DNA from: an uncultured Bacteroidota bacterium
GTDB taxonomy: Bacteria; Bacteroidota; Bacteroidia; B-17B0; Aurantibacillaceae
Reading direction: 5' to 3'
Assembly: GCA_903928655.1 (NCBI GenBank)
Contig: CAIYSA010000279.1
Span: forward strand, 1 to 38,832
DNA length: 38,832 nucleotides
Position numbers and translations under genes: made by a program. This document shows positions 521 to 16,251 of the stretch, one piece after another (positions within the stretch are counted from its first letter, which is position 1; each line of letters starts with the position of its first letter). The notes under the pieces were generated by a model, which saw nothing but the letters and a program-made list of their open reading frames with translations, did no database searches and was not told the DNA's origin.

Positions 521-3500
521 TTACATATTCCTTCTATACTGACCTCCAACTTCAAACAATGCTTTTGTAATTTGTCCGAGCGACATATATTTAACCGCTT
601 CCATTAATTCATCAAAAATATTTTGATTTTGAATCGCAGAATGTTGCAATATTTTTACAAATTCATCATGCTTTTCTTTGTGAGAATTATGAAGTTCTTT
701 TAGCATTGTAATTTGATATTCTTTTTCTTCAGGAGTAGATCGAATAACTTCTGAAGGAATTACAGTTGGACTTCCTTTGCTTGATAAGAATGTATTTACT
801 CCGATAATTGGATATTCGCCATTGTGTTTTAATGTTTCATAATACAAACTTTCTTCTTGAATTTGTCCGCGTTGATACATTGTTTCCATGGCTCCTAAAA
901 CACCACCACGTTCCGAAATTCTATCGAATTCGGTTAATACAGCAGCTTCAACTAAATCAGTTAACTCTTCAATTATGAATGCGCCTTGTAATGGATTTTC
1001 GTTTTTTGCTAAACCTAATTCTCTATTTATAATTAATTGAATGGCCATTGCTCTACGAACAGATTCCTCTGTTGGCGTTGTAATCGCTTCATCATAGGCA
1101 TTTGTATGTAATGAATTACAGTTATCATATATTGCATATAACGCTTGCAGGGTTGTGCGTATATCATTAAAGTCAATTTCTTGCGCATGTAATGAGCGAC
1201 CAGAAGTTTGAATATGGTATTTCAACATTTGACTTCTTTCATTTCCATTGTAACGCAACTTCATTGCTTTAGCCCATATTCTGCGACTTACACGGCCAAT
1301 TACACTATATTCCGGATCAATACCATTACTAAAGAAGAACGATAAGTTTGGCGCGAAATCATCGATATTCATTCCTCTGCTTAAATAATATTCAACAAAG
1401 GTGAAACCGTTAGCTAAGGTAAATGCAAGTTGTGAAATTGGATTTGCACCAGCTTCAGCAATATGATAACCACTTATACTTACTGAATAAAAGTTACGTA
1501 CTTTTTTATCAATGAAATATTGTTGAACGTCACCCATTACGCGTAAACTAAATTCTGTACTAAAAATACAAGTATTTTGAGCTTGATCTTCTTTTAAAAT
1601 ATCTGCTTGTACAGTACCACGAACTTGTGTTAACGTTTTAGCTTTAATAGTTTCGTAAACATCTTTTGGTAAAACCTGATCTCCAGTAACACCTAATAAC
1701 AATAAGCCTAAACCATTATTCCCGTCAGGTAATTCGCCCTGGTAAGTTGGTCTAACGGTTCCTAGCTTTTTATAAATTGCTGCTATTTTAGCTTCAACTT
1801 CTTTTTCTAATTTATTTTCTTTAATATAAAATTCACATTGTTGATCAATGGCAGTATTCATAAAAAAGGCAGCTAAAGTTGGCGCTGGCCCATTAATAGT
1901 CATTGAAACTGATGTTTTAGGATCAGCTAAATTAAAACCACTGTAAAGTTTTTTTGCATCATCCAAACAACAAATACTCACGCCACTATTTCCAACTTTA
2001 CCATAAATATCTGGACGGTAATCAGGATCGTTTCCATAAAGGGTTACACTATCAAAAGCAGTACTTAAACGAGCAGCTGGCAAACCTTTACTTACATAAT
2101 GAAAACGTTTGTTGGTTCTCTCTGGCCCACCTTCACCAGCAAACATACGAGTTGGATCTTCACCTTCGCGTTTGAATGGATAGATTCCGGCAGTGTAAGG
2201 AAAATCACCAGGAAAGTTTTCTTGTAAATTCCATTTTAAAATATCGCCCCATGATGTATATTTTGGGGAAGCAATTTTTGGAATTTTTGAATGTGATAAT
2301 GATTCGTAATGCGTTTCAATTTTTAAAACTTTATCACGCACTTTAAATTCGTAAAATTCGTTCGAATATAATTTTTTCTTGGCTTCCCAATTTTCAATCA
2401 CTAATAAATTACGTGGATCTAAATCTAATTTTGTTTTTTCAAAAGCTTCTTGCAGACCTTTAATTAATCGGTCTTTATCTTCCATTTTAGATTCAGAAAT
2501 GGTTTCGATGGTTTTTTGAATCCCGTATAATTTTTGAGCAACTTCACTTTGTTGGCTCGCTCTTTTATCGTAGCTGCGATTATTTTCAGATATTTCGCTT
2601 AAGTAACGCGTTTTAGAAGGAGGAATAATGTAAATTTTTTCGCTCATTTCTTCTGTTATAAAAAACTGAGAAGCTAAATTTTTATTTCCTGTTTTCTCAA
2701 CCATTTTATTCATTACCGCTTTATACAAACGGTTCATGCCTGGGTCGTTAAATTGAGAAGCAATGGTGCCAAAAACTGGAATGTCTTCATCCGCAATTTC
2801 CCACAAATTGTGATTGCGTTTGTATTGTTTTTTAACATCACGAATAGCGTCTAAAGCACCTCGTTTGTCAAACTTATTTAAAGCAATAATATCTGCAAAG
2901 TCCAACATGTCAATTTTTTCTAATTGAGTAGCAGCGCCGTATTCAGGTGTCATTACGTAAAGACTCATGTTAGAGTGTTCAATAATTTCAGTATCTGATT
3001 GTCCAATACCAGAAGTTTCTAAAATAATTAAATCAAAATTGGCTGCTTTACAAATATTAACAGCATCCTGCACATATTTACTTAATGCTAAATTACTTTG
3101 ACGAGTTGCTAATGAACGCATATATACGCGATCATTATTAATCGCATTCATACGAATTCTGTCACCCAATAAAGCGCCACCTGTTTTTCGTTTTGAAGGG
3201 TCAACAGAAATAATAGCAATTTGTTTGTCTTTGAAATCAACTAAAAAACGACGAACTAATTCATCCACTAAGCTCGATTTTCCTGAACCCCCAGTTCCTG
3301 TAATTCCTAAAACGGATGTGGAGGATTTTTCTGCTTTTGTTTTTAGCTCATTTAATAAAGCTAAATTATCCTCATTAAAGTTTTCTGCAGCAGATATAAT
3401 ACGTGCAATTGATTTATAATTTCTGTCAGCAATCTTAGCAACATCATCTTTAATATTTGTTCCAGTAGCATAATCACACTGACGCAACAAATCATTAATC

Positions 3501-3901
3501 ATCCCTTGTAAACCTAAAGAACGGCCATCATCAGGAGAATATATTTTTGTAATTCCGTAAGCATGTAACTCTTCAATTTCTGTAGGAAGAATTACGCCGC
3601 CTCCGCCACCAAATAATTTGATATGCTCACAATTTCGTTCTTTCAACAAATCGTACATGTATTTAAAATATTCAACGTGTCCACCCTGGTAACTTGTTAC
3701 CGCAATAGCATTTGCATCTTCTTGTATGGCACAGTTTACAACCTCTTGCGCACTTCTATCATGGCCTAAATGAATAACTTCAGCTCCGCTCGATTGGATA
3801 ATTCGGCGCATAATATTTATTGCTGCATCGTGTCCGTCAAATAATGCCGCAGCGGTTACAATACGTATTTTGTGTTTTGATTGATATGGCGTAGTTTCCA
3901 T
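521..3901 (-). CDS. icmF: Fused isobutyryl-CoA mutase (IcmF): B12-binding domain, MeaB-like G-protein domain and mutase domain
   Basis: 1126 aa; N-terminal B12-binding region ([14 protein letters not shown]), central P-loop [18 protein letters not shown]-terminal mutase (RMFAGEG...[17 protein letters not shown]). The F/Q positions match the IcmF rather than the MCM (Y/R) pattern. Confidence 0.93.
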
Positions 3902-6413: not shown

Positions 6414-6515
6414 AATTTTGCTTTTTTATTGTTTTTTTTGTATCTTTAATAAAAAGGATAATAGTTGTTTGAAAAGGCTATTGACTTTTTGAAACAAACT
6501 GAAAACAATAGAATT

Positions 6516-9311
6516 ATGAAAAATCATTTTTACTTTATTTTAGCATCAATTTCTTTTATTTCAATGTCTGCTCAAAACATTGTTCATACTGATAATGGAG
6601 ATTATATTGCTAATACAATTATAATTAAGGTTAAACCGTCATATGAATCAATATGCGAAAATAATAAGATTAATAACGCATTATTTTCTTCATACGCTAC
6701 CGCGCTTGGTGTTTCAAACCTGCATAAGAAATTTCCATCAGATAAAACACCACAAGAGCCGTTTAATTCAGTTGGACAAGCATTTGCTGATCTATCACTT
6801 ATTTATGAATTAAATTATTCTTCTAACATTACAGTCGAAAAAGCTATTAATAAATTATTGGCTACTGGAATTTTAATTTATGCAGAACCTCACATGGTTC
6901 CAAAATCTTTGTATGCGCCAAACGATCCGTTAGGAACAGCGGGTAGCCAATACCATTTATTAAAAATAAACGCATTCAATGCATGGAATATAAATAAAGG
7001 TGATTCAAGTATTGTAATTGGAATCACTGATACAGGAACTGAACCAAATCATCCTGATTTATTTAACGCAACAAAGAGAAATTATGGTGATGTAATTGAT
7101 GGAATCGATAATGATGGCGATGGTTATGTGGACAATTACAAAGGATGGGATTTAGGAATGAATGATAATAATCCAACATATCAAGCTAATGCGCACGGTG
7201 TTCATGTATCTGGTATTTCGGCAGCAAGCACTGACAACAGCATTGGTGGCGCAGGAGTTGGGTTTAATTGTAAGTTTTTACCAGTTAAAATTTCTGATGC
7301 AACAGGAAATTTAATTATGGCATTTGAAGGAATAAAATATGCTGCTGATCACGGTTGTTCTATAATTAATTGTTCTTGGGGCGGTGGCGGAGCTACACAA
7401 TACGGTCAAGACATGGTAACGTATGCAACTATAAATAAAAATTGCTTAGTAGTTGCTGCTGCAGGGAATAATGGGGTAGATGGAGAATTTTTTCCTGCAG
7501 CCTATAATTATGTTATTGCAGTAGCAAATACAACGAGTGGTGATGTAAAACACTCGTCGTCCAACTATGGTTATTTTATTGATGTGGCTGCACCAGGTGA
7601 TAATATAAATTCAACGTGGACAGGAAGTTCTTATTCATTACTTACTGGCACATCAATGTCATCGCCAGTTTTTTCTGGTGCTGCGGGGATTGTAAAGAAA
7701 CAATTCCCTTCATATAACGGATTACAAATCGGAGAAAGACTTAAAGTTACAGCTGATAATATTTATTCTCTTAATCCTACTTATATAAATAAATTAGGAA
7801 CAGGTCGAATTAATTTATTCAGAGCATTAAATGATCCTGCTTCACCTAGTGTTGTTTTTACAAATAAAATTGTAACTGACCATAATGATGAATCTTATAT
7901 TAGCGGAGATACACTTTTTATTTTCGGAACCTTTATTAATTATTTAGATCCAACTTCCGCACTAAATGTTACGGTTACTCCTTTATCAGCTTTAGTAACG
8001 GTTATTGATAAAACAACAACTTTAGGTGTAATAAATACGCTTGCAAGCAAAACAAATAGTTTAGATCCTTTTACTTTTAAATTAACAGGTGTTATCCCAA
8101 TTAATCAATCAATAGATTTTGAAGTTCTAATTAAAGATGGAGCATACCAATCTAAACAATACTTTACATTAAATGTAAATGTTGATTATATTAATATTAC
8201 TAATAATGATATTCAAACTACAGCAACTAGTAGGGGCAGAATTGGATTTAATCAATTCGGGCAATTACAAGGTTTGGGATTTAAATATTTAACTACCGAT
8301 TTAATGTATGATGCAAGTCTAATGATTGGAAAAGATAGTATAAGGGTTTCTGATTGCACTAGAAACACTACTGGAACTGCAGATGATAATGATTTTTCAG
8401 TCATGACAAGAATTTCTAAACAAACCTTAGCCCCGTTTTCCGATTTTGATACTAAAGCTAAAATGAAAGATAATTTAGCTGTATATCCTTTAAATATTCA
8501 AGTAGACCAGAATACGTATTCTTGGAGCACTGTTCCAAATAAACAATTTGTAATATGGGAATACTATATTAAAAATACGCACGCAACTGATACTATTAAA
8601 AAAATGTTTGCTGGTATTTTTGCTGATTGGGATATTGACGGAGGAACCTTCACTCAAAATAGAAGTAATTATAATGCTGGAACTAAAATGGGGTATAGCT
8701 TTTATACTGGCGCTAGCGGCAAATATGCGGGCATTAAATTATTAACAAGTTCGGCTCCACCTAATTTTTATGCAATAGATAATTTGGCCGGCGGTGCTGG
8801 TGGTGTTGATCCTACTACTGGTGGATTTGACACAAAAGAAAAGTATAAAACATTATCTACACAACGTTTAATTGCTGGTGCAACGGGTTTTGGATCAGAT
8901 GTTTTAAATGTGATGAGTAGTGGGCCGTTTGTTGTGCCACCAAATCAAACTGTAAAAGTTGCCTTTGCATTAATTGCTGGCGATAGTTTGTCTGGATTAA
9001 TTTCCGCGGCTAATCAAGCCCAAATTAAATATGATGGGATGGCGACCGAATTGTCAGGTAATAATTTTGAAGGTGACGAGTCTGTTTTAATTTATCCAAA
9101 CCCAACAAATAACACTTTTAATATTTCGCAATTAAATATGAATTTTAATATTCTTGAGATTTATAGTTTAAGCGGAACCTTAATTTTTAAGTCAGAATTA
9201 TCACTCACTTCCGAGTCTATAAATTTGGAGGGTTATTCAAAGGGAATGTATGTTGTTAAATTAAGTAATGGCAAGAAATCAATTTTCAAAAAAATTGTAT
9301 TAGCAGATTAG
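6516..9311 (+). CDS. Secreted S8 (subtilisin-like) serine protease with T9SS type A C-terminal sorting domain
   Basis: Catalytic motifs ITDTGTEPNHPDL (Asp), NAHGVHVSGI (His), LTGTSMSSPVFSG (Ser); C-terminus YPNPTNNTFNI...SKGMYVVKLSNGKKSIFKKIVLAD. The ORF track starts at a TTG at 6465; ATG at 6516 begins a signal peptide (MKNHFYFILASISFISMSAQ). Confidence 0.92.
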   Translation: MKNHFYFILASISFISMSAQNIVHTDNGDYIANTIIIKVKPSYESICENNKINNALFSSYATALGVSNLHKKFPSDKTPQEPFNSVGQAFADLSLIYELNYSSNITVEKAINKLLATGILIYAEPHMVPKSLYAPNDPLGTAGSQYHLLKINAFNAWNINKGDSSIVIGITDTGTEPNHPDLFNATKRNYGDVIDGIDNDGDGYVDNYKGWDLGMNDNNPTYQANAHGVHVSGISAASTDNSIGGAGVGFNCKFLPVKISDATGNLIMAFEGIKYAADHGCSIINCSWGGGGATQYGQDMVTYATINKNCLVVAAAGNNGVDGEFFPAAYNYVIAVANTTSGDVKHSSSNYGYFIDVAAPGDNINSTWTGSSYSLLTGTSMSSPVFSGAAGIVKKQFPSYNGLQIGERLKVTADNIYSLNPTYINKLGTGRINLFRALNDPASPSVVFTNKIVTDHNDESYISGDTLFIFGTFINYLDPTSALNVTVTPLSALVTVIDKTTTLGVINTLASKTNSLDPFTFKLTGVIPINQSIDFEVLIKDGAYQSKQYFTLNVNVDYINITNNDIQTTATSRGRIGFNQFGQLQGLGFKYLTTDLMYDASLMIGKDSIRVSDCTRNTTGTADDNDFSVMTRISKQTLAPFSDFDTKAKMKDNLAVYPLNIQVDQNTYSWSTVPNKQFVIWEYYIKNTHATDTIKKMFAGIFADWDIDGGTFTQNRSNYNAGTKMGYSFYTGASGKYAGIKLLTSSAPPNFYAIDNLAGGAGGVDPTTGGFDTKEKYKTLSTQRLIAGATGFGSDVLNVMSSGPFVVPPNQTVKVAFALIAGDSLSGLISAANQAQIKYDGMATELSGNNFEGDESVLIYPNPTNNTFNISQLNMNFNILEIYSLSGTLIFKSELSLTSESINLEGYSKGMYVVKLSNGKKSIFKKIVLAD

Positions 9312-9319
9312 TATAAATT

Positions 9320-10300
9320 TTATTGGATTATAATTTTTTTATGAATAGTTCCCTTTTCGGTTTCTATTTTTAGGATATATAATCCTGAATTGATTGCTGG
9401 CAAATGAAGTATAGAACTTTTTGCGTTTTCAATAATATTTCCTGACGCATTAAATAAGGTATATTCTTTAATTTTTTCAGCAGAATAAATATGTAATGTT
9501 TCATTGCTATTTATAGGATTTGGATACAGCACAATTCTGTTCTCTAGATTTTCAAATTCATTAACTCCAATAATGGTATTTTGATTAATAACACCAATTG
9601 CATCTAAATCAAAACCAGAACTCCCAAAAGGTGTTGGCCAAGGCTCGTTTACTTTATTATTGTAACTGTCGCGGGTTGCATAACTATTATTTATTGAACC
9701 AACACAATCAATAACCTTAACATGCGTGATGTTGTTTTTATTTAGTAAAGCATTATTAGCAACGTCGTTTAAATCAAAAGGAGTTCCATAACCAGCTTGA
9801 TATTTTCCTGCTAAATTATTTATTTTTGTTGCATCAGTATATCCAAAGGAGCCGACTTGAATGTTTGTATCTATCAATGAATGTGAAGGGAAGCGAAAAA
9901 AATGTTCGCCATCGCTGCTTACTTCCACGAAAGCAAGCTCTAAAAAAAGGCCGTCAAAACTATTTTCAAAAACGGCAAAATCATTTCCGATACCATCTTT
10001 TATTGGAAACGGAAACTTACAAATTGCAATACCGCCATCTCCTAAACTTACCACGCCATTGCTAAGAGCTATTCCAAAAACTAGCGAACTATCGCCAACA
10101 TCTGCAAGGCCTAATCCAACATTTGAAATATCTTGATAACCTCTTATTATTTTGCATTCACTTACCCAATTTACAAAAACCAAACTATCTTTGTAAATAG
10201 CATCAGAGCCAGGTATTCCTGCTTGAGGAGCGTAAATCTGTGCTTGTATCGAATTAACAATCAAGAGAGAAAAGCAAATATATAAAAATAGATTTTTCAT
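9320..10300 (-). CDS. T9SS-secreted protein (signal peptide, GIGNDFAVFEN/ELAFVEVSSDG...GFDLDAIGVIN region, C-terminal sorting domain), second gene of the riboswitch unit
   Basis: Signal peptide MKNLFLYICFSLLIVNSIQAQ; C-terminal VLYPNPINSNETLHIYS...NSGLYILKIETEKGTIHKKIIIQ typical of T9SS type A domain; starts 3 nt after the end of the upstream ORF. Confidence 0.8.
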   Translation of the reverse strand: MKNLFLYICFSLLIVNSIQAQIYAPQAGIPGSDAIYKDSLVFVNWVSECKIIRGYQDISNVGLGLADVGDSSLVFGIALSNGVVSLGDGGIAICKFPFPIKDGIGNDFAVFENSFDGLFLELAFVEVSSDGEHFFRFPSHSLIDTNIQVGSFGYTDATKINNLAGKYQAGYGTPFDLNDVANNALLNKNNITHVKVIDCVGSINNSYATRDSYNNKVNEPWPTPFGSSGFDLDAIGVINQNTIIGVNEFENLENRIVLYPNPINSNETLHIYSAEKIKEYTLFNASGNIIENAKSSILHLPAINSGLYILKIETEKGTIHKKIIIQ

Positions 10301-10303
10301 GAT

Positions 10304-10654
10304 TTAATTTTTATTTCCATAAGCACAATGTTTGCAACTATTCCCGCAACACGAACCCTTTAAATAATGATATAATTCGGTGAATACAAAAAGCCCATCT
10401 TCTTTGTAAAAATGTACCCCTTCTAATAAATTTTGCGGATTTAATGTTCTTCTTAAATTGTGATTGTCATTTACTAAAGATTCCAATTCTGTTAAGCAGT
10501 TTGCACAAAGACAATTATAATTTGTTTCACCCATAAATGTTTTGGTTTTCTCAGAAAGGGTAATTTCATTACATTGACAATTGGAAATATCATTAGCGTT
10601 GCACTTAAAAGTGACATTACAGCGTTTGCAATATGTGATTTCATTTTTATTCAT
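10304..10654 (-). CDS. Cys-rich small protein: CWC-like zinc-ribbon N-terminus plus DUF5522-like C-terminus
   Basis: N-terminus YCKRCNVTFKCNANDISNCQCNE...NCLCANCL; C-terminus LLEGVHFYKEDGLFVFTELYHYLKGSCCGNSCKHCAYGNKN. ATG at 10654 preferred to the TTG at 10663 used in the ORF track. Confidence 0.72.
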   Translation of the reverse strand: MNKNEITYCKRCNVTFKCNANDISNCQCNEITLSEKTKTFMGETNYNCLCANCLTELESLVNDNHNLRRTLNPQNLLEGVHFYKEDGLFVFTELYHYLKGSCCGNSCKHCAYGNKN

Positions 10655-10661
10655 AATACAC

Positions 10662-10680
10662 AATCTTTTTCGCGAAGATT
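10662..10680 (-). promoter_or_regulatory. Small hairpin between riboswitch and start codon (AATCTT-CGCGAAA-AAGATT)
   Basis: Perfect 6-bp arms with a 7-nt loop, directly upstream of ATG 10654; possible expression-platform element. Confidence 0.4.
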
Positions 10681-10694
10681 ATCGTGTTTACTAT

Positions 10695-10850
10695 TTAGGC
10701 AGGTCTCCTGACTTATTCCTTTATTTTTGAACCTTCTCGTTAAACAGATTAACAATGGTATTTTCAAAAATGTTACAGAACATACAGTTGCGCGACAGTT
10801 GTAGATTTTAACTACATTCCCTTTTAATTTTAGTGTTAACCAAAAACCAA
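10695..10850 (-). promoter_or_regulatory. Cobalamin (AdoCbl-class) riboswitch
   Basis: Minus strand reads ...GGTTTTTGGTTAACACTAAAATTAAAAGGGAATGTAGTTAAAATCTACAACTGTCGCGCAACTGTATGTTCTG...GAGAAGGTTCAAAAATAAAGGAATAAGTCAGGAGACCTGCC: AAGGGAATG, CWACWGTCGCGCAACTGTA (B12-box region) and AGTCAGGAGACCTGCC are hallmarks. Confidence 0.95.
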
Positions 10851-10858
10851 TAGCATGC

Positions 10859-10866
10859 CAAATTTA
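10859..10866 (-). promoter_or_regulatory. Putative Bacteroidota -7 promoter box (TAAATTTG, consensus TAnnTTTG) preceding the riboswitch
   Basis: Exact match to TAnnTTTG on the minus strand, a few nt before the expected 5' end of the riboswitch; -33 element is weak (T-rich tract only). Confidence 0.55.
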
Positions 10867-10911: not shown

Positions 10912-13284
10912 TTAAAATGTTAATCTATATTGTGGAATTACAAAAAACTTTAACTGATAATCAGTTTTAATTTTTTGAGTGTTCATATCGTATTGTTGTT
11001 GAAATATATTATTGTGTTTAGTTACATTTTGTATGTCGACACTTATTTCATGAGTAAATCGTTTTGTATTTATTTTATAAGAAGGCTTCACATCTAACCT
11101 AACATAAGGATCATATTGTGGCTGATAAGCAAGTAAGTCATTTCTAATTTCATTATTTGCTATTATTGATGAAGTTAAATCTATGGGAACATAACGCTTT
11201 CCCCCTGCATAAGTAAATTTAACATCCAACGCAAAAATATGTTTTTCTTTTATTTTAAATTCTTTTCCTGCCAAAGCATTAAAAACATAATTACCATTAA
11301 AGGCAGTATTTCTTATAATGCCATCACTTGCTTTGTATTTACTTTCAAATAGTGAGGCAGTAACTAAAAAATAATACCCTTTACTATAAAATTTTTCGAG
11401 CGTTACTTCAAAGCCATAATTTTCGCCAGTACCATTGCTTTCCAAACTATCTAAATTAGGACTATTGAAATCAGCACCTAAGTTTGCCGCACTAAAATAA
11501 TCGCTTCTTGATTTAACTGGTATTTTATATAAATATTGATAATATAATTCAGTTTTAATTCGCACACTATTGAAAAGGTTTACATCATATGCTATAACCG
11601 CATGGACAGCTTTTGTAAAATCCAAATTCCTGTTTGTTTCTTTTACTGCGCCATTTCCTAAATTGGCAGTTGCAAAATAAATGTAAAGTGGTTGAACTTG
11701 GCTATGCAAGCCTGCTCCAAAACTAACAGATTGTTTTTTATTTATTTCATATTTTAATCCTAATCTTGGTTCTGGTGATTTAGATTTATTGAGCAATAAG
11801 TATTGGTATGTAAAACCTGTGTTGAGCGAAAGCTTTTCACTAAAATGATGTTTCCATTGAATAAATCCTCGTGACAAAGATGTTTGTCCTTTATAATTTC
11901 TTAATGTTACAAAGCCTGTTCCATTTACGTCTGTGCTATCAACATAGGATGTGTTGTATATATCAATATATACGCCTGCATTTATAAAGTTTCGCGAATT
12001 TATTTTTTTGTTATAAGTTGTATTAGCTGTGTAGCGAGTTGTATATGATTCGTTTCTGTATTCTGGTCTAATGTTTTGTTGGCTGGCGCTTGTATCAACT
12101 CTATCTGAAGTGATATAATTAGATTGACCCGTAATGCCAATATTTGTTTTTAAATACGAAGAACTATTAATTAAATAAGTGTGTGAAATTCCACCGGCTC
12201 CAACATTTGATTTAAAGGAAGTGTTTCGGCCGCTGTAACCATATAAATTATTGTCTTTAGATTGTTGACTTTGTAATAATTCCGCTTTGCTTAATCCTCC
12301 AATTCCCCAAACTGAAAATTTGCCAGCTTTTTTTGTTGGCATATCAATTTTAAATGTAACATCTTGATATTGCGGAACCGCGCTTCCTGTTCCAAAATCT
12401 AAGCCAAGGTATTTAAAAACGGATAGAGTTGAGTAACGGTAATTAACCATGTAAGAAGCGTTTTTTTTCTTTTTACTAAATGGGCCTTCGGCGCCAACTT
12501 CAAAACCATTAAACCCAACCATTCCTAAAAACTCGCGTTTTTCATTATTACCAGTTCTCATTTTTAAATCAAAAACTCCTGCAGTTGCATTTCCATAATC
12601 TGCCGGAAAAGCACCAGTCATAAAATCCGAATTGTCTAATGTATTATTATTTAAAATAGAAATTGGTCCGCCCGATGAGCCCATAGAGCCAAAGTGATTA
12701 GGATTCGGAATATCTAAACCATTAAGTCGCCACAAAACACCAAGTGGAGAATTTCCTCTTACAATAATATCATTTCTACTATCATTTGCTCCACTTACAC
12801 CTGCAAAATTTGCTGCCATCCGTGCTGGGTCGCCTCTGCTTCCCGCATATCTGTTAGCTTCTTCGGTGCTAAAAACACGAGAACTTACAGTTGCCATTTT
12901 GTTATTTGTTTTTGTTTTATCAATTTCAGCTGTTATCACTATTTCTTCGCCCTGCAATATACTTTCTTCTAATTCAATATTTAATACCATTTCTTTACCA
13001 CTTGTTAGTACAACGGTTTGTGCCTTTTCTTTATAACTTACAAACGATACTTTAATTTGTTTTCTTCCTAAAGGAACGTTATCAATTCTAAATTTTCCAA
13101 GTTCATTGGTTGAGGTTACCAAAAGTGGATCTGAATTTAAAATGCAAATGATTGCTCCCGGCAATAGACTCTGCGTTTGTTTATCCACAACAGTTCCTCG
13201 AATGGTTTGTGTTAATTCTTGCGCATAGTTTTGCATATGCGAAATGAAAATTAGGAATAAAAGAATGTGTTTCATTTTAGGCAT
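10912..13284 (-). CDS. TonB-dependent receptor with N-terminal CarboxypepD_reg-like domain
   Basis: Signal peptide; TIRGTVVDKQTQSLLPGAIICI...LGKFRIDNVPLGRKQI; plug-like RGDPARMAANFAGVSGANDSRNDIIVRGNSPLGVLWRLNGLDIPNPNHF; C-terminal strand ends in F (FFVIPQYRLTF). Confidence 0.9.
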   Translation of the reverse strand: MPKMKHILLFLIFISHMQNYAQELTQTIRGTVVDKQTQSLLPGAIICILNSDPLLVTSTNELGKFRIDNVPLGRKQIKVSFVSYKEKAQTVVLTSGKEMVLNIELEESILQGEEIVITAEIDKTKTNNKMATVSSRVFSTEEANRYAGSRGDPARMAANFAGVSGANDSRNDIIVRGNSPLGVLWRLNGLDIPNPNHFGSMGSSGGPISILNNNTLDNSDFMTGAFPADYGNATAGVFDLKMRTGNNEKREFLGMVGFNGFEVGAEGPFSKKKKNASYMVNYRYSTLSVFKYLGLDFGTGSAVPQYQDVTFKIDMPTKKAGKFSVWGIGGLSKAELLQSQQSKDNNLYGYSGRNTSFKSNVGAGGISHTYLINSSSYLKTNIGITGQSNYITSDRVDTSASQQNIRPEYRNESYTTRYTANTTYNKKINSRNFINAGVYIDIYNTSYVDSTDVNGTGFVTLRNYKGQTSLSRGFIQWKHHFSEKLSLNTGFTYQYLLLNKSKSPEPRLGLKYEINKKQSVSFGAGLHSQVQPLYIYFATANLGNGAVKETNRNLDFTKAVHAVIAYDVNLFNSVRIKTELYYQYLYKIPVKSRSDYFSAANLGADFNSPNLDSLESNGTGENYGFEVTLEKFYSKGYYFLVTASLFESKYKASDGIIRNTAFNGNYVFNALAGKEFKIKEKHIFALDVKFTYAGGKRYVPIDLTSSIIANNEIRNDLLAYQPQYDPYVRLDVKPSYKINTKRFTHEISVDIQNVTKHNNIFQQQYDMNTQKIKTDYQLKFFVIPQYRLTF

Positions 13285-15099: not shown

Positions 15100-16251
15100 T
15101 TAATAATTTATTACTTGTTCCATAATTTCTTTTGGAACTGGTCTTTCCTCGTATTGTTGTGTTCTTAATTGTGGTTCAAAACCCGCTTCAGTTATTGCAT
15201 CCTGAATTGTTTTGTAAGTAAAGCGATGTGGCGCACCAGCAACACTAACAACATTCTCTTCAATCATTATACTACCGAAATCATTGGCGCCAGCATGTAA
15301 ACAGATTTGTGCGGTTTGTTTTCCTACCGTTAACCAAGAGGCTTGAATATTTTCAATGTTAGGTAACATAATTCTACTTAGGGCTAACATGCGGATGTAT
15401 TCATCATCACTCACATTATTTGTAATTCCTTTTACACGTTTTAATAAAGTGCCATCATCCTGAAAAGGCCAAGGAATAAATGCTAAAAATCCTTTCGCAT
15501 CTTTTGGTTTTTCTTCTTGCACATCACGTATCCAAACTAAATGTTCAAAGCGTTCGTAAATTGTTTCTACATGACCAAACATCATTGTAGCCGATGTGGT
15601 TATATTTAATTGGTGACATGCACGCATTACATCTAACCATTCTCTACCAGTACATTTCCCTTTCGAAATTAATCGGCGAACGCGGTCGTTTAATATTTCT
15701 GCGCCAGCTCCAGGTAAGCTATCCATACCGGCAGCCATTAATGCTTTTAAAACTTCGGTGTGTGTTGATTTTTCTAACTTTGTGATATGTGCAATTTCTG
15801 GGGGCCCAAGTGCATGTAATTTTAAACATGGAAAAAGCGTTTTTAATTCTTTAAATAAATTGACGTAATACCTTAAACCTAAATCGGGATGATGGCCACC
15901 TTGCAACAATAGTTGTTCACCACCTAACTGAAATGTTTCTTCAATTTTTTTCTTATAAGTTTCTATAGAAGTTACATAAGATTCCGGATGGCCAGGAATT
16001 CTGTAAAAATTACAAAATTTGCAGTTTGCAATACACACGTTTGTTGTATTTACATTTCGGTCAATAATCCAGGTTACTTTTTGGGAATTATTTTTTTTAA
16101 TATTTCTAATTTCGTTAGCAACAAACATCAAGTTTGAGGTAGGTGCATTTTCGTATAAAAAAACGCCTTCTTCAATCGATAAAAACTCAAGATTAAGCGC
16201 ACGATTTAATAATGATTCAACGGTCATTTTGTATTCTTTAATATCTATCAA
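15100..16251 (-). CDS. mqnC: Cyclic dehypoxanthinyl futalosine synthase (radical SAM, menaquinone futalosine pathway)
   Basis: Radical SAM CIANCKFCNFYR; GGEQLLLQGGHHPDLGLRYYVNLF; LPGAGAEILNDRVRR; ASWLTVGKQTAQICLHAGANDFGS. The true start may be the internal ATG giving MTVESLLNRAL. Confidence 0.92.
   Translation of the reverse strand: MIDIKEYKMTVESLLNRALNLEFLSIEEGVFLYENAPTSNLMFVANEIRNIKKNNSQKVTWIIDRNVNTTNVCIANCKFCNFYRIPGHPESYVTSIETYKKKIEETFQLGGEQLLLQGGHHPDLGLRYYVNLFKELKTLFPCLKLHALGPPEIAHITKLEKSTHTEVLKALMAAGMDSLPGAGAEILNDRVRRLISKGKCTGREWLDVMRACHQLNITTSATMMFGHVETIYERFEHLVWIRDVQEEKPKDAKGFLAFIPWPFQDDGTLLKRVKGITNNVSDDEYIRMLALSRIMLPNIENIQASWLTVGKQTAQICLHAGANDFGSIMIEENVVSVAGAPHRFTYKTIQDAITEAGFEPQLRTQQYEERPVPKEIMEQVINY

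Follow-up and report, generated by a model that had tools for sequence, protein, structure and literature searches.

What does a cobalamin riboswitch control when neither of the two genes behind it codes for a classical Btu component? This question is raised by a locus on the minus strand of the window, i.e., the whole stretch of 38,832 nucleotides analyzed here. The preliminary description of this DNA had read the locus as a candidate undescribed module for B12 uptake or handling, made of a Cys-rich protein and a protein secreted by the type IX secretion system (T9SS). We found its reading of the layout to be accurate in each element. First, on the minus strand, a covariance-model search recovered the cobalamin riboswitch aptamer (RF00174; 10681-10866) over the full model (positions 1-189), scoring 102.1 bits where the cut-off is 31.5 (E = 1.2e-24); this is the sole Rfam match above cut-off within the window. 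Second, the promoter box proposed to stand before it is a Bacteroidota-type -7 box, TAAATTTG, at the 5′ edge of the aptamer (10859-10866, minus strand), and a TAnnTTTG box holds the equivalent position in 53 of 62 related riboswitches as against 3 expected. Third, two ORFs (10654-10304 and 10300-9320) follow with a gap of 3 nt between them, and the unit ends 8 nt from a convergent gene (6465-9311, plus strand) for an S8 subtilase with a T9SS tail of its own.

Bound to cobalamin, the riboswitch would repress the two-gene mRNA. The hairpin before the start codon is without a T-run and, hence, this control may be translational; single-sequence RNA folding of the riboswitch leader gave nothing beyond chance (z = -0.18). 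A phage collection searched with the leader yielded no match. The TonB receptor gene upstream (10912-13284) was considered as a btuB and rejected, as its product is of the CarboxypepD_reg type and is without a homolog in the related loci.

The second gene (9320-10300, minus strand) codes for a protein of 326 residues that is predicted to leave the cell via T9SS and to end up on the surface or in the medium. As had been proposed, it bears a signal peptide (judged by eye and from a helix at residues 2-17 of the AlphaFold2 (AF2) model) and a T9SS type A C-terminal sorting domain (9323-9529, minus strand), which exceeds the cut-offs of both TIGR04183 (49.7 bits versus 23; E = 2.8e-13) and PF18962 (36.3 versus 27; E = 6.8e-9) and matches the T9SS C-terminal domain 8glk_D in Foldseek. 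Besides this tail, no family in Pfam or NCBIfam matched the protein; the N-terminal 240 residues gave no Pfam family even when 16 homologs were scanned singly, and searching the PDB by sequence or by profile returned the T9SS tail or noise only.

The preliminary description had proposed a survey of whether homologs recur downstream of RF00174 or beside btuB, and those of the secreted protein do. They occur in 38 of 60 related genomes. Of the 38 copies, 34 follow an RF00174 match on their own strand at a distance below 5 kb (about 0.05 expected by chance, with one to three such matches per genome where present), 18 of those 34 within 120 nt of it. Three of the four unlinked copies are near contig ends. 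A scan of the genomes of 84,980 species recovered at least 556 relatives, including records titled Ignavibacteria and Chlorobiota. Among the best 80 of these loci, a covariance model built in this analysis detected a riboswitch in 62, on the same strand as the gene in all 62. With neighbor-gene seeds checked against Pfam before counting, the same 80 loci feature a BtuB-type receptor in 45 cases, DUF5074 (BtuG-like) in 42, DUF4465 (BtuJ-type) in 25, CWC within 10 kb in 12, and CobT/CobS in 5—lower bounds, since several of the contigs are short. The common order is riboswitch, btuB, DUF4465, the secreted family, and a DUF5074 lipoprotein. Even among the distant members (approximately 30-40% identity), 12 of 20 loci contain a riboswitch, and several of the loci show the order btuB, family member, DUF5074.

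Some of these neighborhoods hold further genes of potential interest. One locus codes for a 492-residue T9SS-tailed, apparently propeller-like protein between the riboswitch and the BtuH-like gene (L076:3518-4996(+)); it has no Pfam match besides the tail and is a possible T9SS counterpart of BtuG. Similar radical-SAM genes (MqnC-like, by eye) adjoin a secreted-family gene elsewhere (L069:6076-7203(+)) and lie about 5 kb away in the window (15100-16251, minus strand), which may be chance. A further locus (L055:1946-2133) has a pair of Flavo-1 RNA matches, one on each strand, with about 40 nt between them.

The first gene (10304-10654, minus strand) codes for a protein of 116 residues when the ATG at 10654 is taken as the start codon; the program-made ORF list prefers a TTG at 10663. 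No signal peptide is apparent by eye and the product is predicted to be cytoplasmic. Its proposed likeness to CWC and DUF5522 proteins is borne out by Pfam: a CWC domain (10493-10630, minus strand; PF14375, 38.0 bits versus a gathering threshold of 24, E = 2.2e-9) is followed by a DUF5522 domain with the motif CCGNSCKHC (10307-10441, minus strand; PF17653, 66 bits versus 25, E = 3.1e-18), and the 12 cysteines divide into 8 in the former and 4 in the latter. The most economical guess is that it binds metal and plays an accessory part in the B12 response.

That this gene is instead incidental, i.e., an unrelated zinc protein that has come to lie in the operon of a few genomes, is a rather unlikely alternative, and one that concerns the first gene only. 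It would account for CWC being present in a minority of the secreted-family loci (the 12 of 80 above), and for the DUF5522 family being near-universal in the relatives while mostly unlinked to riboswitches. Likewise, CWC genes in several other families are not near a riboswitch. Of the CWC loci surveyed, 0 of 20 had one within 1.5 kb, and 5 of 18 had one when larger regions were considered; we accordingly rejected CWC as a generally riboswitch-linked gene. Against it stands the independent recurrence of CWC in B12 units. It lies behind a riboswitch and metE in two loci (L216 and L225; metE by sequence inspection), behind a riboswitch and btuB in a third (L217), and behind a riboswitch, btuB, and a propeller gene in a fourth (L218). 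In a fifth (L227), BtuC/BtuF adjoin a series of CWC/DUF5522, CobU, CobT, CobS, riboswitch, and btuB (names other than CWC by inspection in these last three), and CWC is close to CobT/CobS in L121. The metE product is the B12-independent methionine synthase, and the placement of CWC downstream of a riboswitch and metE suggests that the CWC protein is wanted when B12 is absent. Further, DUF5522 is fused in frame to a secreted BtuH-like domain, a distant member of the family, between btuB and DUF5074 in two loci (L237:5727-6761(-) and L238:3587-4651(+)). Finally, a Sulfurospirillum protein with the same domain by annotation, SMUL_1567, is encoded in a cobamide gene cluster and co-induced with it (PMC7755780); it is described as a CWC (PF14375) protein, to which the protein in the window adds DUF5522.

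The preliminary description had viewed the Cys-rich protein as a cobalt/corrinoid or B12-status factor. This holds to the extent that the protein recurs in B12 units (with btuB, metE, cobTS, and as DUF5522 fusions); it is not confined to them, and the connection is one of genomic association. A bolder version, in which the CWC-DUF5522 protein is a new cytoplasmic cobamide- or cobalt-handling factor (a metal donor, a partner in cobamide trafficking or decyanation, or a B12-status sensor) working with the secreted capture protein, is speculative and in our view unlikely. Were it true, the in-frame DUF5522 fusions would represent a direct coupling of cytoplasm and surface.

Several other observations touch on these domains. 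DUF5522-fused secreted domains are also found in L088, L092, and L104; in these fusions, as in those of L237 and L238, DUF5522 precedes a hydrophobic export-like segment, and it is odd for a protein that is exported to carry a cytoplasmic Cys motif. In a genome of the same genus (G001, contig C332:1527-2086(-)), a DUF5522 ORF directly follows the other cobalamin riboswitch. A 70-residue Cys-rich ORF with no Pfam match lies between a lipoprotein gene and a secreted-family gene (L246:5712-5924(+)), where CWC/DUF5522 sits elsewhere. In two genomes of 2-3 Mb (L228 and L229, family f38), the gene next to CWC probably codes for a glycerol kinase, and the vicinity holds no riboswitch.

We then examined what the globular region of the secreted protein might be. 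A full-length AF2 model built from 61 sequences (pLDDT 92) was of little use in Foldseek: glucuronidases led with spurious multi-domain matches at an rmsd of about 15 Å, and 7biz appeared only at rank 45. As these matches were swamped by the T9SS tail, the search was rerun with a model of the domain alone (residues 22-241; 9578-10237, minus strand; pLDDT 94.8, pTM 0.92). Ranks 1-3 among 350,542 PDB chains were now 7biz_B, 7biz_A, and 8blw_B (probabilities of 1.00, 1.00, and 0.99; TM 0.45-0.47), the structures of BtuH2 with B12 (7BIZ) and of BtuGH (8BLW). The similarity to BtuH is moderate only, with a TM-score of about 0.46 and an rmsd of 7.5 Å, and carbohydrate-binding modules and F5/8 type C domains appear among the lower ranks.

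Profile comparison independently points to BtuH. A profile of near and distant family members, aligned using hhalign to a four-sequence BtuH profile (whose membership was checked against 7BIZ and 8BLW), gave a probability of 95% and a score of 58; controls run with the same query (DUF4465, DUF5074, BtuB, CobS, CobT, a reversed and 60 column-shuffled profiles) scored at most 20. A profile of the distant members alone scored 62, with controls at most 25. The significant alignment covers a core of 52-96 columns, with the rest of the domain outside it, and pairs the family signature SLGxGG...DFxVFENxF with SLGxFGG...YDFxxxGNxF of BtuH. The BtuH profile searched directly against the own genome of the window gave no match; thus, the relation is distant and becomes visible only from profile to profile or by structure.

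The profile alignment with BtuH2 includes the motif DFAVFENSF (residues 107-115; 9956-9982, minus strand). Its N113 and F115, kept in 89 of 89 and 88 of 89 aligned homologs, align with Asn399 and Phe401 of BtuH2 (numbering deduced from the alignment, with W577 being chain residue 477 of 7BIZ). BtuH2 binds B12 with a picomolar Kd; Asn399 contacts the B12 phosphate, and Phe401 lies close to the lower ligand (PMC8941943). The residues with which BtuH2 contacts the corrin ring, Tyr510, Trp511, Trp577, and His476, have no clear counterpart in the secreted domain, and the equivalent of Gln333 is uncertain. We conclude that the secreted domain is distantly BtuH-type, with a pocket that differs in part, and that it most likely binds cobamides.

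The divergence at the ring contacts also bears on a second alternative, namely that the secreted protein serves B12 acquisition without binding B12, as a scaffold or lid partner of BtuB, BtuG, or BtuJ or as a BtuL-like factor. There is precedent in B. thetaiotaomicron, whose lipoproteins BtuL and BtuK2 are encoded in B12 operons although no B12 binding by them could be detected (PMC12751083). Nevertheless, the best structural matches of the domain are B12-binding BtuH domains, and the phosphate-contacting residue falls in its most conserved motif, which makes this alternative quite improbable. Capture of something other than a cobamide when B12 is scarce (a B12-carrier complex, a glycan, or another metal chelate), with a jelly roll like those of carbohydrate-binding modules and F5/8 domains acting as a generic binder, draws on the lower Foldseek ranks and is very improbable, as BtuH structures rank above all such matches and the family is linked to btuB, BtuG-like, BtuJ-like, and cobTS genes rather than to glycan genes.

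The assembly has two cobalamin riboswitches in total. The other one, on contig C315, precedes a gene for a BtuB-type receptor and then one for a T9SS-tailed DUF4465 protein (L003:1-966(-), at the contig end). We therefore regard the unit in the window, which is not adjacent to btuB in its own genome, as the second transcription unit here to carry such a riboswitch, and its surface proteins probably serve the pathway of the C315 unit; two T9SS-sorted families of B12 proteins thus coexist in this genome. Further, a B12-dependent enzyme, a Mutase-MeaB-B12-binding fusion (IcmF-like; 521-3901, minus strand), is encoded 5.4 kb downstream of the unit.

Taken together, we consider it likely that the locus is a B12-repressed scavenging unit, in which a T9SS-exported, divergent BtuH-type capture protein feeds BtuB and the CWC/DUF5522 protein is a metal-binding accessory. 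Several results speak against this reading: the structural match to BtuH is moderate, the profile alignment is confined to the core, the ring contacts have no clear counterparts, the unit is apart from btuB in this genome, and the BtuH profile did not match the genome directly. In this mechanism, scarce cobalamin would cause the riboswitch to permit expression of the two-gene mRNA. The secreted protein would leave the cell via Sec and the type IX system and be anchored on, or released from, the surface, where its BtuH-type β-sandwich would bind cobamides, the DFxVFEN motif probably gripping the phosphate of the nucleotide loop. The cobamides would then be handed over to the BtuB of contig C315, behind which the T9SS-sorted DUF4465 B12-binder is encoded, and the CWC-DUF5522 product would remain in the cytoplasm as the metal-binding accessory. 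The earlier idea of a surface or released corrinoid-binding protein that uses T9SS is thus strongly supported by the riboswitch linkage, the operons with btuB, DUF4465, and DUF5074, and the homology to BtuH by structure and profile, with the binding itself predicted from these.

Other parts of the preliminary description need qualification. It was right that the two products are not classical Btu components, but the secreted one is distantly related to the accessory protein BtuH. The module is likewise not wholly new, in that the secreted protein is a variant of this accessory type, and the surface B12 binders BtuG, BtuH, and BtuJ are already known. BtuH had been reported as being without known structural homologs (PMC8941943) and was surveyed in gut Bacteroidetes only; our search of the literature available to us found no paper tying the secreted family to B12 or taking BtuH beyond the gut Bacteroidetes. 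Our results suggest that the BtuH fold belongs, as one branch, to a large family of at least 556 relatives, T9SS-tailed and found in the B12-uptake operons of environmental Bacteroidota. This provides a testable function for an unannotated, Pfam-less family and brings CWC/DUF5522 proteins into B12 physiology. Given the riboswitch linkage and the relation to BtuH, many environmental Bacteroidota probably release a B12 catcher of their own, implying that T9SS-sorted B12 catchers are common outside the gut.

Finally, the secreted family may be compared with the known accessory proteins of B12 uptake. BtuG/DUF5074 proteins are surface β-propellers for accessory B12 capture in the same operons (PMC6143338, PMC10404256), whereas the secreted protein is of a different, non-propeller fold. 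BtuK was tried as the closest relative and rejected: at L295, which resembles locus 1 of Bacteroides, the presumed BtuK homologs lack the secreted domain and have a PKD domain instead, accompanied in one of them by DUF5074. BtuJ/DUF4465 proteins (PF14717; PMC12751083, PMC13398666) are B12-binding jelly-roll proteins that are likewise exported and encoded in B12 operons, and many with T9SS or PEP-CTERM tails were already noted (PMC12751083); membership in this family, marked by PF14717 and an NTPAY loop, was rejected, as there is no PF14717 match and hhalign gives a probability of 0.2%, i.e., a sequence or profile relation is absent. The closest parallel is BtuH of Bacteroides thetaiotaomicron (BtuH1, BtuH2, and the H-domain of BtuGH; PMC8941943, PMC10404256), with which the family shares the predicted fold of the globular domain, the phosphate-binding Asn, export (here predicted), and residence in cobalamin-riboswitch/btuB operons. 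In contrast to BtuH, its sequence identity is unrecognizable without profiles, and the domain is shorter, without the C-terminal GW(L/M)GExSTEV segment that carries the ring-contacting Trp. Whereas BtuH is held by a lipoprotein anchor and belongs to gut Bacteroides, the secreted family features a T9SS C-terminal sorting tail and extends across environmental Bacteroidota and beyond.
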